DNA of 13,755 nucleotides from contig JAPUJX010000470.1 of assembly GCA_027295975.1 (NCBI GenBank), positions 1 through 13,755 of the forward strand, read 5' to 3'. Source of the DNA: Gammaproteobacteria bacterium (GTDB lineage Bacteria > Pseudomonadota > Gammaproteobacteria > Pseudomonadales > Azotimanducaceae). The notes beneath the pieces were generated by a model. That model worked only from the letters and a program-made list of their open reading frames with translations. It had not been told where the DNA came from and searched no databases. This document shows positions 131-13,755 of the stretch, piece by piece (positions within the stretch are counted from its first letter, which is position 1; each line of letters opens with the position of its first letter). A program made the translations under genes and the position numbers.

Positions 131-925
131 ATGATATCAATACGCTACGTCGATGCGCTCAACAAATACTACGGTGCAATGGGTAATCCACCCTACCGCT
201 GGAGCATCAACGAGACCGCTCCGCTACACCGCCTGACCAAGCCGCTCAGGGAATGTGCCGTCGCCCTTTTGACTTCCGGGGGCGTCTCGCAGACTGTCGT
301 GCCGGCTTTCAATCCAGATGCCAGGAACGACCACCGTCTCGACGAAATTCCTCCCGACACCCCATCAAACGATTTCCAGGTTCACGACAGCTACTACGAT
401 CACACCGATGCGGAAACCGATATCAATTGCATCTTTCCCCTCGATCGACTTCGGGAGTTGGCCATTCTGGGAGAAATCGGAACCATCGCACCCAGGCTGT
501 GGAGCGGCTTCATGGGTCGTATCTACAATCGCAGCAAGATCAGAGACGAATCCGGTCCTGCGTTCGTTGACGCGCTTGAGGCAGACAACGTTGATGTGCT
601 TGTTGCCGCGCCAACCTGACCCCTTGATCACCAGACCGTTGGTCTGGTCTGCCGACTCGTCGAAGAGCGTGGAATCGCGACAACTTACGTCGCCACGGGA
701 CGCGACCTCACCGCACTGGTCAACCCCCCTAGAGCGTTGTTTGTCAACCACCCGATGGGTAACAACTTCGGACAAGCAAACGACAAAGCTGTGCAATTGA
801 GCATTCTTCGTACGGCCCTGTCACTCGTCGAAACCGCTGAGGAAGGGGGCACGCTGGTTGACATGCCAACGAGCTGGCCGGACTTTTTCGAGTTTACTCC
901 CGGCGGCAAAAACTCCATGGGTTGA
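131..925 (+). CDS. GrdB/PrdB-like reductase family selenoprotein (in-frame TGA = Sec163)
   Basis: This is a 264-residue protein if the TGA at 617-619 is read as selenocysteine; a normal reading stops at 162 residues. It resembles the glycine/sarcosine/betaine/D-proline reductase selenoprotein B family. The N-terminal part has a VALLTSGGVS segment and an NPDARNDHRLDEIP-like stretch. The middle has the HTDAETDINCIFPLDRLREL region, then IGTIAPRLWSGFMG. After the TGA the same frame stays open for 101 codons with family-like sequence: PLDHQTVGLV, LFVNHPMGNNFG and a C-terminal DMPTSWPDFF. Sec would sit at residue 163 in the context APT-U-PLDHQ. The start at 131 has AGGAAA at 120-125. In clostridia these reductases reduce amino acids with Sec as catalyst. 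Stand-alone homologues in proteobacteria have no assigned substrate, and no Grd or Prd partner subunits are visible here. The alternative is a Cys-type homologue killed by one nonsense mutation; the downstream hairpin argues against that. Confidence 0.82.
617..648 (+). promoter_or_regulatory. Candidate bacterial SECIS element after the in-frame TGA
   Basis: After the TGA (617-619), bases 630-637 (ACCAGACC) pair perfectly with 641-648 (GGTCTGGT), closing a three-base loop GTT at 638-640. The stem has 8 bp and the loop starts 18 nt after the TGA. Its first loop base is G. From established knowledge, bacterial SECIS elements are short hairpins lying inside the coding region just after the UGA; they usually have a G early in the apical loop and are bound by SelB. 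The fit is good, but the loop is not the E. coli fdhF consensus. The hairpin bases also encode the HQTVGLV stretch, so protein constraint could explain part of the pairing. Confidence 0.65.
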
Positions 926-2339: not shown

Positions 2340-2816
2340 TCAGGAAAAGCCAATCCAGCGCCCCGACGCGGCAACCACAAACCAGATCGTCATGGAAGCC
2401 ACCGCAACGAGGCGCAATGTCCAGGGGTTGATCGACCCGTGATCATAACGCAGCAGGGGGCGGCGAATGGCGTAGACAAAAAAGATACCGAAAACCAGAC
2501 TCGTCATCTTTGCCCAGAAAAAAGAATTGTAGTAGAGCTTAATGGCCACCGCGGAAGCCATGAAGATGCCTGACGCAATGAGTGCAACCAAAGCCACGTT
2601 GATCCACTTCTGAGTGTTGTCGATCACCACTTCGGAGGGCACGTCTTTGAGAAGAACCCCAAGCAGACGCAGATCTCCGGTTATCACCATACCGCCCAAC
2701 GTCAGCATGGCAAGCAGATGAAAAACCTGTACGACGGCAAAAGTACCCCCGTAAGCTTTCGAGATTGATGCCAGCCAGGAAGCGTCCAGCCATTCGAAAA
2801 ACGCAAATACATCCAT
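2340..2816 (-). CDS. Four-helix integral membrane protein, DUF6644-like (second paralogue)
   Basis: This is a 158-residue, strongly hydrophobic protein with about four transmembrane segments, near residues 22-46, 71-93, 99-118 and 133-152. It shares a pattern with the protein encoded just upstream: a His in the first helix (His33, VFHLLAML), then GDLRLLG at the end of that helix, a WAKM segment before helix 3, and AASGRWIGF at the C-terminus. This suggests the pair arose by duplication. AGGGA lies about seven bases before the ATG. The gap to the upstream gene is only nine bases, so co-transcription is likely. I recall such proteins as uncharacterised (DUF6644-like), but that family name is from memory. 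The conserved His could bind heme or a metal; nothing in the sequence proves it. Confidence 0.75.
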   Translation of the reverse strand: MDVFAFFEWLDASWLASISKAYGGTFAVVQVFHLLAMLTLGGMVITGDLRLLGVLLKDVPSEVVIDNTQKWINVALVALIASGIFMASAVAIKLYYNSFFWAKMTSLVFGIFFVYAIRRPLLRYDHGSINPWTLRLVAVASMTIWFVVAASGRWIGFS

Positions 2817-2825
2817 GGTAATTCC

Positions 2826-3401
2826 CTACTCGAACGCGGCCATTTCGTCAACGCAACCGGCAACCCAGTACATGAAGTAGGGTAAGTTCTGATGGCAGTC
2901 GTACCAGTCGTATGCCATCAATCTCCCGGACGCCACCACGCAAGACCAGAGAGCGAGGGACACCCCGGCACCGGTGCGGATTCGCCTGGGTGGGATTGGA
3001 TCATTGTCCCAGGTATCGACCGCGGCTTTCATTCTGTTGCGGAATAACAAAGCGTTGATGCCCGCAGCGACGAAAAATACCATCTTCATGCGAAACCAGA
3101 TACTGTTTGTGGTGCGTACGGGGACGGCGTAAACAAGCAGGAGACCGCTGACCACCATTACCGCAAAACCGATCAGCATCGGCGTGTCGAGCCGTCTGGC
3201 GATAACGGAAGCGGGCACGCTGGTGAAAGCCCGGCCGAGCATGCGCAGGTCGATGACGACCAGCATGCCAAAAAACAGCGCCAACGTCAGTACGTGGGTG
3301 GATTCGACCCAACTGTACATGTAATAAGACTCATGCAGCGCCGTACTCCATGCGTGGGTGTCCAGCCACTCGGCAAAACGCAGCAGCACTTCATTCAGCA
3401 A
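2826..3401 (-). CDS. Four-helix integral membrane protein, DUF6644-like (first paralogue)
   Basis: This is a 191-residue membrane protein with hydrophobic segments near residues 34-54, 74-93, 102-121 and 143-163. His23 lies in ALHESYYMYSW. His36 lies in ESTHVLTL, followed by IDLRMLG, which matches GDLRLLG in the next protein. FRMKMVFF precedes helix 3, and VASGRLMAYDWYDC follows helix 4. The start is a TTG at 3399-3401 with a GGTGAG element just upstream. An in-frame TGA shortly before it rules out a longer protein, and the nearby ATG is in another frame. It is the first gene of the minus-strand cassette and is divergent from the phosphate symporter. Function is unknown. Compared with its neighbour it has a Cys-containing C-terminal extension. 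Confidence 0.75.
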   Translation of the reverse strand: MLNEVLLRFAEWLDTHAWSTALHESYYMYSWVESTHVLTLALFFGMLVVIDLRMLGRAFTSVPASVIARRLDTPMLIGFAVMVVSGLLLVYAVPVRTTNSIWFRMKMVFFVAAGINALLFRNRMKAAVDTWDNDPIPPRRIRTGAGVSLALWSCVVASGRLMAYDWYDCHQNLPYFMYWVAGCVDEMAAFE

Positions 3402-3603: not shown

Positions 3604-4920
3604 ATGGCCATTGAGCTGCCCCCGGCAGAATGCGCTGACTCTCTTCTTCAAAAAATCCTGATACCCACCGCCGTACTTGCCCTCGTCTACCTGCTCATTC
3701 TGTCCGTCGGTCTGGTCGGCACTGGTTTCAAATGGGCAAGTGGCGGACAGGAAGGCGCCAGAGAGCTGTTTGCATTTGCGACCAATCCACTCATGGGTCT
3801 CATCGTTGGCATCCTTGCCACCGCGCTGGTGCAGAGTTCCAGCACGGTCACCTCCGTCATCGTCGGGCTGGTTGCCGGTGGTCTGGACGTGCACACCGCA
3901 ATACCCATGATCATGGGTGCGAATATCGGCACGACCGTTACCAATACCCTCGTCAGCCTTGGCCACATTACCCGGCCCCAGGAATTCCGGCGTGCCTTCG
4001 CCGCCGCAACGGTACACGACATGTTCAATTTTCTGGCGGTGACGATTTTCCTGACTCTTGAATTGTTGACCAGCTTGTTATCAGATAACGGCCAGGGCGT
4101 TCTACAGAGTATCACCGAGCCGATCGCACTGACTTTTGCGGGAAGTGCAGACGTCGACGTCAAGAGTCTGAACTTTATCGGAAATGTGACCAAACCTGTA
4201 ATTGCCATCTTGCACGACAAATCGGGGACCGGGGCGTTTGACGGTATGAGCCCGGTCGGCGGAGGCATCAGCATGATCGTCCTCGCGCTCGTCATGATTT
4301 TCCTGAGCATCACGTTGCTCGGAAAAACGCTGAAAAAAAATCTCACCGGGCGCGCCGAGCGCATCTTTCATGCCGCCGTCGGTCGCGGACCAATCAGCGG
4401 CATAACCTCCGGTACTATCGTGACGATTCTGGTGCAGAGTTCATCAACCACAACCAGTTTGATCATACCTATGGCCGGATCCGGGGTGATGAAGCTCAAA
4501 CAGATATTTCCTTTTACCCTGGGCGCCAATATCGGCACAACGATAACCGCACTCATCGCCTCCCTGTCTGGCGGCGATTACGCCGAAGCCGCTCTGCAGA
4601 TTGCGCTTGTCCATCTGTTCTTCAATGTATTCGCCACCGTACTGATCTACGGAATTCCACCGCTGCGGGCGATTCCATTAAAGGGCGCCGAATGGCTTGC
4701 GGATATAGCAGTTCGTAAACGAACCCTGGCAATCGTCTATGTGGTGGTCCTGTATTTCCTGCTGCCGCTGGGTATGCTGCTTGTTGCACAACTGTTGACG
4801 ACAGACAAAGCAACCACGGCAGCCACCCGGAGTCCGGCCCGACATGGGGAAATTCAGTCTAACCTCCAACCCATTCTCCAGCCGTTTCAAGATGTGCAAA
4901 AAGGAGACCAGCCATGTTAG
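3604..4920 (+). CDS. Na+/phosphate symporter family membrane protein (NptA/type II Na/Pi)
   Basis: This is a 438-residue inner-membrane protein predicted to import inorganic phosphate with sodium. It shows the internal duplication of the type II Na/Pi family. QSSST occurs at residues 77-81 and again at 278-282. Each copy is followed by GANIGTT, at 105-111 and 307-313. Hydrophobic helices surround both repeats, with others near 20-40, 142-160, 222-240, 330-352 and 376-397. The C-terminal 40 residues are polar and have no PhoU domain; that function is supplied by the next gene, whose ATG overlaps this gene's stop (ATGTTAG). The weak GGGAA before the ATG is the only visible binding site. Phosphate is the likely substrate by family, although some relatives may export it or carry other oxyanions. 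Confidence 0.9.
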   Translation: MAIELPPAECADSLLQKILIPTAVLALVYLLILSVGLVGTGFKWASGGQEGARELFAFATNPLMGLIVGILATALVQSSSTVTSVIVGLVAGGLDVHTAIPMIMGANIGTTVTNTLVSLGHITRPQEFRRAFAAATVHDMFNFLAVTIFLTLELLTSLLSDNGQGVLQSITEPIALTFAGSADVDVKSLNFIGNVTKPVIAILHDKSGTGAFDGMSPVGGGISMIVLALVMIFLSITLLGKTLKKNLTGRAERIFHAAVGRGPISGITSGTIVTILVQSSSTTTSLIIPMAGSGVMKLKQIFPFTLGANIGTTITALIASLSGGDYAEAALQIALVHLFFNVFATVLIYGIPPLRAIPLKGAEWLADIAVRKRTLAIVYVVVLYFLLPLGMLLVAQLLTTDKATTAATRSPARHGEIQSNLQPILQPFQDVQKGDQPC

Positions 4921-5618
4921 AAGTTTTGAGAGCTTTGTTTGGATCCGCCCGAACTCAGTCTTCGCTGGTTGTACAAGCCACCGGGCAGTTTCTGGAAATG
5001 TTGGACAATGGCCGTAGCCTGCTCGAAAAGGCTCAACCTCACCTGCTGGTCAAGGATGCCGGCAATAACCTGCTCAATGAAGCGCGCGACATCGATAAAT
5101 CGACCAACAGGCTGGTGCGTGCAGTGCGAAAAATACTCATCGCTCATCTGGCTTTCAATAAACAGGATGCTTCCACCTGTCTGATTCTCATGTCGGTAGT
5201 CAAAGACGCTGAGCGTCTGGTTGACGAGTGCCGGAGCCTGCTGAACCTTGCCAGCCTCGTGGTGGATCCCGTACCGGAAGAATACCGCAAAGCCTTGTCC
5301 GAAAACTGTACTGCGGTAATAGAAGTTCTAAAAAGCACCCGTACCGCCTACGCCGATAACGACGAAGCAAAAGCCCTGGGGCTGGTGGAAACCGAAAAGC
5401 CGTTTATCGAATCCATGAAGCCGGTGCGGGACAAAATTCTCGACGACACTGACCTCAATCCCCGCCAAGCCGTGGTAACGGCCAGTGCATTTCATACCAT
5501 CCAACGGATTCGTGCACACCTTGGCAATATTGCCAGCACGGTTGTTTTCCCGGTGCACCAAATCGACTTTACCAAGCAGAAATTCGTCAACGCCGCCAAA
5601 CAACGGTTGAATAAATAG
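4914..5618 (+). CDS. PhoU-domain-like regulatory protein coupled to the Na/Pi symporter
   Basis: This is a 234-residue, largely helical protein without membrane segments, consistent with two three-helix PhoU-type bundles. Acidic and basic heptad-like stretches support this: DIDKSTNRLVRAVRK (about residue 59), KDAERLVDECRSLL (about residue 97) and a C-terminal RIRAHLGNIASTV. PhoU domains bind metals and restrain phosphate uptake. In many Na/Pi symporters the domain is fused to the C-terminus, whereas here it is a separate gene. AAGGAGA at 4901-4907 gives a strong binding site inside the symporter gene, and the seven-base overlap indicates translational coupling. Identity rests on context and helical pattern more than on a diagnostic motif. 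Confidence 0.72.
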   Translation: MLEVLRALFGSARTQSSLVVQATGQFLEMLDNGRSLLEKAQPHLLVKDAGNNLLNEARDIDKSTNRLVRAVRKILIAHLAFNKQDASTCLILMSVVKDAERLVDECRSLLNLASLVVDPVPEEYRKALSENCTAVIEVLKSTRTAYADNDEAKALGLVETEKPFIESMKPVRDKILDDTDLNPRQAVVTASAFHTIQRIRAHLGNIASTVVFPVHQIDFTKQKFVNAAKQRLNK

Positions 5619-12802: not shown

Positions 12803-13281
12803 ACTACGACATAGCCGAGCGTTACCCGGCTGGAGTCGCGTTGGCGTGGGTAAACTCCAAGACGGTCGTAACAAACGGACCTGGCAACGTCCGCAAAGTA
12901 ACGAAGCGGCTTTGTCAGCACCGGAGCACCCCAGCCGAAAAACGGCTCTACCGGCTTGCAACTGCATCGACGTAGTGTCCTCAACGCCGGCGTAGTCGCT
13001 GCTGTTCGATCACGAACGCATGGGCTGGAATGACGTCGAGCTGCTCGCTCGTCTTCGTACCGATCCGCTCAAGCTCACAGCCACAGTCGCAGTGCGTGCG
13101 CTCAGGCGCATGCCCGAGATCGCCGCCGCCATCATCGACTAAGGTCAAGCGCATCGCGGTGCGAGTTTCTGAATGCCCGTGGCTCAGCGTGCGGTGATCA
13201 CTCACGTCGATCCAGCAATCTATCCACTGGGTTGCTGGCGTTCCGTTTGCGATCGTGGACTCTCTCCATCAGGCGAACGTT
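12803..13281. other. 479-base gene-poor stretch with mobile-element debris
   Basis: No intact gene is visible between the aminotransferase stop and the IS91-type transposase start. The first part (12803-12980) has no recognisable coding signal on either strand. It contains a small AGCCG/CGGCT inverted repeat around 12934-12948 without a T-run. The second part contains the IS66-like remnant listed separately. The last 75 bases upstream of 13282 may be the left flank of the IS91-family element, but I cannot place an end. Confidence 0.5.
12981..13118 (-). pseudogene. Fragment of an IS66-like transposase (TnpC)
   Basis: On the minus strand this stretch encodes HCDCGCELERIG followed by TKTSEQLDVIPAHAFVIEQQ. 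It resembles the region of IS66 TnpC proteins where a Cys-rich zinc-type motif precedes a C-x-CG-x-L-x-x-IGEDVSEQLD-x-x-P sequence. Only about 45 of the expected roughly 500 residues remain, and a stop follows at 12981-12983. The frame is open upstream to 13205, but that part is not recognisable. It is a decayed insertion-sequence remnant, identified from pattern memory on a short match. Confidence 0.55.
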
Positions 13282-13755
13282 ATGCCTTCAATCGATACCC
13301 AATCCGAGCTGGATCAAACGGCTGGCCTCGTCCGTTACCGGCGCCAAAAACCTGAGGAAACGTCTCTATACCCCATCATCGAGCGGCACCTGCCCCGGTT
13401 CCTGAATCTATTGTCCGAGCACGATTCCCAACTGCCTCGCTTCGTCACCCAGGAGTTCGACGACTACCTCGCCTGTGGTCGGTTGGAACATGGCTTTTTA
13501 AGGGTCAAGTGCAACGGCTGCCGACACGAACATCTGGTTGCTTTCTCATGTAAGTGCCGGGGTTTCTGCCCCTCCTGCGGCGCCAGGCGGATGATCGAAA
13601 CCTCCGCCCACCTCATCGATCACGTCATTCCGCCCGTGCCCACCCGGCAGTGGGTACTCTCTTTCCCCTGGCCCTTGCGCTTTCTCTATGCCAGCCGTCC
13701 AGTCGTGTTGACGCGTACGCTCGGGGTGATTACCCGGGCTATCGAGACAGATCTC
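13282..13755 (+). CDS. IS91-family transposase, N-terminal part (cut by window end)
   Basis: From the ATG at 13282 a frame stays open for 158 codons to the last base. The protein has IIERHLPRFL and RFVTQEFDDYLACGRLEHG, then a Cys-rich zinc-binding domain. Its cysteines are at residues 77, 80, 90, 92, 96 and 99 (KCNGC, CKCRGFCPSC). WVLSFPWPLRFLYA follows. This order is characteristic of the N-terminal domain of IS91/ISCR-type HUH (Y2) transposases, which move by a rolling-circle-like mechanism. The catalytic HUH and tyrosine motifs would lie beyond the window. Intactness cannot be judged. A clear binding site before the ATG is lacking. Confidence 0.85.
   Translation, partial: MPSIDTQSELDQTAGLVRYRRQKPEETSLYPIIERHLPRFLNLLSEHDSQLPRFVTQEFDDYLACGRLEHGFLRVKCNGCRHEHLVAFSCKCRGFCPSCGARRMIETSAHLIDHVIPPVPTRQWVLSFPWPLRFLYASRPVVLTRTLGVITRAIETDL
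13282..13755 (+). mobile_element. IS91-family insertion element, left part
   Basis: The transposase fragment implies an IS91-type element that runs past the right edge of the window. IS91 elements lack terminal inverted repeats and target-site duplications, so the left boundary cannot be set from repeats. It lies somewhere between 13119 and 13282 if the IS66-like remnant is host-side debris. Confidence 0.55.

Follow-up and report, generated by a model that had tools for sequence, protein, structure and literature searches.

A probable selenoprotein gene from a PrdB-related clade with an altered redox motif, in a gammaproteobacterium of the Azotimanducaceae

The stretch of DNA analyzed here (the window; 13,755 nucleotides) comes from a gammaproteobacterium of the family Azotimanducaceae and bears, close to its 5′ end, a gene on the forward strand coding for a PrdB/GrdB-like selenoprotein (131–925). 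Upstream of it, and read in the same direction, is the 3′ part of an enoyl-CoA hydratase/isomerase gene (3–112), which is cut by the contig start. Of the 36 residues encoded there, 27 are identical to the C-terminal residues of the ECH protein (Pfam ECH_1) encoded upstream of the orthologue in locus L138. This gene ends 18 nt before the ATG at 131, and a purine-rich AGGAAA at 120–125, read from the sequence, is a possible ribosome binding site for the selenoprotein gene. The frame opened by this ATG has a lone in-frame interruption, a TGA at 617–619 (codon 163), and closes with a terminal TGA at 923–925; when read through, it gives 264 residues with U at 163, in the motif U-P-L-D-H-Q-T. Standard ORF calling yields a 162-aa product and a separate 62-aa ORF at 737–925 on the same strand, which corresponds to the C-terminal part of the selenoprotein and would be reported as a gene of its own. 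An earlier reading based on the letters of the window alone (the sequence-only reading) had predicted such a split, and had also called the gene unannotated: the databases do cut it short, but a shortened copy (P0010) is already named “glycine/sarcosine/betaine reductase selenoprotein B family protein”. The same reading had put the chance of a frame staying open for the 101 codons after the TGA at about 1 in 100, which is too strong, since by our computation base composition gives 2.5% and triplet frequencies give 11%. Taken alone, the open frame past the TGA is weak evidence, and it is the comparison with relatives that decides.

This comparison was made at several depths. When a collection with one genome per species was scanned by pattern, eight relatives with 70–76% identity were recovered, and in 8/8 of them a TGA occupies the same codon. 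Among 200 genomes drawn from the host family, 31 gave matches at E up to 1e-55, at 32 places, with exactly one internal TGA at each; two of these places, only 41% identical, were left out of the later comparison. In the orthologue set read as DNA (n=33 including the window, with five duplicate contigs removed), the column of codon 163 is TGA in 33/33, and the UPLD motif is present in the window gene and in 33/33 orthologues. The 32 orthologues are 57–76% identical to the window gene, with a mean identity of 65.8% before the TGA and 65.0% after it and a synonymous share of codon differences of 52% on either side; the TGA is the only one in 31/32, the extra stop in L125 being that gene’s own terminal stop. 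Hence, the family-like sequence claimed to extend beyond the TGA is borne out, and neither an unrelated residue at the column nor a decay of the sequence after it, which together had been named as speaking against the claim, was seen. A sequencing error at 617–619 is refuted in practice, as the same TGA recurs in all 33 orthologues, which come from different assemblies.

At the protein level, a search returned 847 relatives. Among the best 120 of these, 79/79 full-length proteins (>230 residues) have a Cys at the TGA column, in the context CPLDHQ (70) or CPLDQQ (9), in keeping with the expectation that the column would hold Sec or Cys. A further 40 of the best 120, seen as protein only, are at most 175 residues long and end in AAPS, AAPT, AAST or ASPS, which are the residues directly preceding the TGA column; the window’s own 162-aa protein is one of these, and one remaining entry is of middle length. 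Thus, in 40 of the best 120 of 847 relatives the database entry ends just before the Sec column and thereby hides the likely catalytic residue. In an even draw across the phylum, the host alone was matched among 398 genomes at E 1e-55, implying that a draw of this kind seldom contains close orthologues. At E 1e-15, 16/398 were matched, namely the host, 14 genomes bearing Cys genes and a single genome in which two TGA-bearing genes were found.

Downstream of the TGA, starting 10 bases past it, lies a bacterial SECIS-like hairpin (630–648, forward strand) with an 8-bp stem formed by 630–637 (ACCAGACC) and 641–648 (GGTCTGGT) and the loop GTT at 638–640, which places the loop 18 nt from the UGA. 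Folding returns exactly this stem, with a minimum free energy of −12.3 kcal/mol. The hairpin is in line with the four bSECIS rules set out in a passage of PMC13188914: it resembles the bacterial consensus given there in its 3-nt loop with a G first and then a U, and its 8-bp stem, 18-nt spacing and −12.3 kcal/mol include nothing outside the limits of that passage. Among shuffled sequences, 7/200 (39 nt) and 1/200 (27-nt core) fold as low as the window hairpin, and for two orthologues the 39-nt shuffles that fold as well number 40/200 (L002) and 13/200 (L047). Synonymous shuffles of single sequences give p values of 0.015–0.037 for the orthologue hairpins, which is mildly significant. The folding energy of the whole 51 nt was mostly unremarkable against synonymous shuffles (2 to 458 of 500 fold as well across 28 rows; 168/500 for the window). 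It is a poor test, and was replaced by pair counts at fixed positions and by covariation.

All 8/8 stem pairs are kept in 33/33 orthologues, albeit as non-independent sequences; the facing Gln and Leu codons of the stem are CAG-CTG in 24 and CAA-TTG in 9, with no exceptions, and GGT and CAC in the stem region are fixed in 33/33 despite available synonyms; immediately 5′ of it, the codons for Pro and Leu vary among the same 33. Across 55 TGA-bearing genes, including paralogues, all 8 pairs are formed in 39 and at least 7 in 48, the remaining 7/55, the clostridial L135 among them, having 5 or 6; 94.3% of cells are paired, and 33 compensatory cells fall at 4 of the 8 pairs. The 17 Cys genes used for comparison (15 from the E 1e-15 phylum draw plus L133 and L134, all of them UPxC-type rather than UPLD) have 66.2% of cells paired and 4 compensatory cells, and 0/17 reach 7 pairs. 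The Terrisporobacter prdB gene (L155), which had been entered as a Cys gene, was dropped: it is really a Sec gene with UGTC, the TGA of which had been missed by local alignment. We propose that SelB and tRNA-Sec would insert selenocysteine at the UGA at 617–619 under the direction of the hairpin at 630–648.

The sequence-only reading had postulated a selenocysteine pathway in the host, and had held that an absence of the sel genes would count against it. On this point the host assembly (3.72 Mb, 680 contigs, 77% complete) gives a divided answer. No selA or selB was found in it, and no tRNA-Sec was found with 150 of the 496 first-look candidates scored; a weak selA match (25 bits) proved to be a 384-aa ORF far under the selA cut-off, and the best tRNA-Sec-like match is a tRNA-Leu according to ARAGORN. 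The assembly does, however, hold a fragment of an oxidoreductase–SelD-type fusion (L026; G000:C507, 3–1463, minus strand), cut by the contig end, which scores 436 bits with the Nterm_to_SelD model (cut-off 310), 89 with selD (cut-off 125) and 307 with “fusion_not_SelD” (cut-off 700). It contains the stretch CGGCGAK, which we take to be the SelD catalytic motif. Moreover, two host paralogues, L059 (G000:C321:1833–2582) and L173 (G000:C562:3220–3948), have one in-frame TGA each, in the motif UPVC; counting the window gene, the host thus appears to code for at least three PrdB-like selenoproteins.

As the host itself displays only the SelD-fusion fragment, the case for a full pathway in this genome rests on its near relatives. 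We compared 19 genomes, 13 with a TGA-bearing match (host included) and 6 without. SelA scores over the cut-off in 11/13 of the former versus 1/6 of the latter (Fisher p 0.0095) and in 11/12 same-family genomes other than the host, and the counts for SelB are the same (11/13 versus 1/6). The two selA misses among the 13 are the 77% complete host genome and a 73% complete genome of the same genus (G008), in which the selB match too is only below the cut-off. tRNA-Sec exceeds the gathering score in 14/19 genomes and reaches at least 59 bits in 12 (11/13 versus 1/6); two matches lie near the threshold of 47, at 48.3 in G008 and 49.9 in G025. In seven further orthologue genomes (G001–G007), selA is matched at E up to 1e-20 in 7/7, five of them over the cut-off, with selB over the cut-off in 5/7, selD in 4/7 and an ARAGORN-confirmed tRNA-Sec in 6/7. 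In another genome of the same genus (G009), selA, selB and tRNA-Sec sit together on contig C185, such that a single gap in an assembly could lose all three; we infer that their absence from the host is a gap of this kind, and that the UGA is decoded in this host.

Two other interpretations of the TGA can be weighed at this juncture. Under the first, the host would have lost Sec decoding, which would leave the TGA as a genuine stop and make the gene a decaying relic. It draws on the failure to find selA, selB and tRNA-Sec, but that observation comes from an assembly in 680 contigs that is 77% complete, for genes that share one contig in G009; furthermore, the host retains the SelD-fusion fragment and two additional TGA-bearing paralogues free of other internal stops, and in the window gene itself the hairpin still has 8/8 pairs and the frame no other stop. 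We regard a relic as very unlikely. The second holds that UGA is read as Trp or Cys by means of a changed code or a suppressor. The Cys of the homologues would fit a UGA-to-Cys reassignment, but under a changed code the window gene’s own terminal TGA would be read on, and Sec is favored both by the constraint on the hairpin and by the presence of the SelD-fusion fragment; this interpretation is exceedingly unlikely. That the window gene codes for a selenoprotein is, in our assessment, nearly certain.

Turning to its affinities, the read-through protein is recognized by the Pfam GRDB model (PF07355) at 28.7 bits against a gathering score of 22, and its best NCBIfam match is PrdB (TIGR04483), at 143.1 bits against an equivalog cut-off of 300. 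The latter match spans residues 33–247, and the homology to the family thus crosses the TGA; clostridial D-proline reductase PrdB is homologous over this same range and has its Sec at the same column. These matches, along with the column and the hairpin, support the assignment of the gene to the GrdB/PrdB-like selenoproteins that the sequence-only reading had made. We made a quick maximum-likelihood tree from 150 proteins, 54 with Sec and 96 with Cys; in it the window gene falls in a clade of 111 rows with support 99, of which 32 have Sec and 79 have Cys, and the tool warns of long branches elsewhere. The window gene is adjoined by a protein with Cys (P0002), indicating exchange between Sec and Cys in the course of the superfamily’s history; the tree as a whole has 8 Sec/Cys changes, at least 6 of which are forced by well-supported branches. 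Position +3 from the Sec/Cys is Asp in 111/150 proteins, Cys in 39/150 and never anything else, and the rows with Asp are the rows of the clade. Judged by tree and motif, this clade, which we name UPLD, is a distinct one within the PrdB/GrdB superfamily, wherein U/C-P-L-D replaces the usual redox pair U/C-x-x-C. We also considered Cys100 as a UPLD-specific resolving cysteine, as it is present in 111/111 UPLD rows and 4/39 others; yet the matching INC segment of Terrisporobacter PrdB, compared by eye, has a Cys there, so that Cys100 is not specific to the clade. An INC-FP-DR segment and GFMG are, again by eye, common to Terrisporobacter PrdB and the window protein.

Reports of PrdB-type selenoproteins in marine metagenomes go back to 2005, and these genes count among the most abundant selenoproteins there, going by the relevant passages of PMC1088965 and PMC2398784. 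Those passages give UxxC for PrdB, from 42 Sargasso Sea sequences (PMC1088965) and 235 GOS sequences (PMC2398784), as do the corresponding passages of two reviews (PMC9312934, PMC13188914). The marine genes belong to the same broad family as the window gene, with an encoded Sec, and may include some UPLD genes; the UxxC description, as worded in these passages, fits the UPVC paralogues of the host and not the window gene. A search of the open-licence literature for “UxxD” together with “selenoprotein”, in that spelling, found no paper. The UPLD clade shows that neither the name of a clostridial amino-acid reductase nor the UxxC motif fits every member of the superfamily.

It could be argued that the window gene nevertheless codes for the PrdB of a true D-proline reductase, or for the GrdB of a glycine, betaine or sarcosine reductase. 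Its best NCBIfam match is indeed PrdB, at 143 bits, and D-proline reductase PrdB is the name on many database entries. However, that score is about half of the equivalog cut-off of 300; the PrdB proteins of L155 and L135 have UGTC, in contrast to the UPLD of the window gene, and the host has no gene of the PrdA family. By the length of the models, GrdB (PF07355) has about 435 residues, as against about 265 for the family of the window gene, and the GrdB motif is UxxCxxC in a passage of PMC13188914 as against UxxD here, the host having no GrdE-family gene (GrdA and GrdC lay outside the search).

For the partner subunits we used PF09338. We take this family to cover both GrdE and PrdA, and on the Terrisporobacter plasmid used as a positive control it was found at the region of PrdA. 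In 39 genome entries, amounting to 34 distinct genomes because of five duplicate pairs, it was absent from 38/39 entries and 33/34 distinct genomes, the incomplete host assembly among them; two of the 34 (G008 and G009) have no UPLD gene. The only searched genome that combines a selenoprotein with a PF09338 gene (468.8 bits) is that of L177 (G427:C195:56878–58110), where the two are on different contigs. The absence of PF09338 in 33/34 distinct genomes including the host, with GrdA and GrdC outside the search, is a further argument against such a PrdB or GrdB, which we deem highly unlikely; it also agrees with the sequence-only reading, which had seen a stand-alone protein in this gene. Accordingly, on sequence grounds the window product is probably not a D-proline reductase, and more generally we think it very likely that the gene is something other than PrdB.

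The gene neighborhoods of the UPLD selenoproteins offer some clues regarding their context. We surveyed 32 orthologue loci, 31 of them distinct (L007 and L110 are one contig), leaving out L122 and L123, with a reach that was often short. A methyltransferase of the Pfam family Methyltransf_2 is encoded within 5 kb of the selenoprotein gene in 13/31 loci, and a particular short-chain dehydrogenase (at least 65% identity to the query) in 11/31; the query proteins were taken from L154 and L138, both of which are counted. The two genes are close together in L143, L147 and L154, where the start of the methyltransferase ORF falls in a range from 8 bases ahead of the selenoprotein gene’s end to about 21 bases beyond it, an arrangement that looks like a single operon. 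No Methyltransf_2 neighbor was found at the 17 UPxC-type loci listed, and with the reach held to about 2.2 kb the counts are 11/32 versus 0/17 (Fisher p 0.009, with one contig counted twice and relatedness uncorrected). Judging by these recurring neighbors, the selenoprotein may share a pathway with a methyltransferase of the Methyltransf_2 type and with a short-chain dehydrogenase, which provides a first handle on the substrate. In the window itself no Methyltransf_2-type methyltransferase was found. An enoyl-CoA hydratase gene is upstream of the orthologue in L002 and L138 as well. Separately, a molybdopterin-oxidoreductase-like protein, identified by eye, is encoded directly 3′ of the gene on the minus strand in L002 (798–3329) and L004 (789–3461), with positions relative to the gene start. 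Taken together, we consider the finding real and largely right: the gene, with its encoded Sec, belongs to a clade related to PrdB in which the motif is changed, no partner is known and certain gene neighbors recur.

The AlphaFold2 model of the protein, built with 79 sequences, has a pLDDT of 94.5 and a pTM of 0.93; neither sequence nor fold search found a clear relative in the PDB. In the predicted structure, residue 163 is positioned immediately before a helix (164–179). Reactive thiols and selenols are often situated directly before a helix. We propose that the selenolate of Sec163 would attack a polarized bond (C–N, C–S or similar) of a small organic substrate. With the +3 cysteine missing, the resulting Se-adduct or selenenyl state would then be resolved by an external thiol or by another cysteine. 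For relatives of GrdB, a Sec attack on a polarized C–N or C–F bond is proposed in a passage of PMC10838667; by analogy, this specific chemistry of Sec163 is conceivable, though we would sooner bet against it than for it. The UPLD product would probably work without PrdA or GrdE, members of the partner family of the D-proline and glycine reductases, and the methyltransferase and the short-chain dehydrogenase would act before or after the selenoenzyme step.

The joint explanation that best accommodates these observations, and that we hold with considerable confidence, is a functional Sec gene of the UPLD clade with hairpin-directed decoding, whose product is probably partner-free, would employ selenolate chemistry and may belong to a methyltransferase/dehydrogenase pathway. 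A bolder proposal, which we put forward tentatively and at somewhat less than an even chance, is that UPLD proteins constitute a separate family of partner-free selenoenzymes with a reaction of their own: the Asp would stand in for the resolving Cys, the Sec would act as a one-selenium nucleophile, and the enzyme would share a pathway with the methyltransferase and dehydrogenase; its substrate could, for example, be a methylated small molecule, of which a group is cleaved or transferred.

Elsewhere, the window codes for two adjoining DUF6644 proteins on the minus strand (2340–3401), a Na/Pi cotransporter and, after it, a PhoU-like protein that scores slightly below the Pfam cut-off (3604–5618), and the start of an IS91-type transposase (13255–13755; Zn_Tnp_IS91, 70.8 bits), which is cut by the window end.
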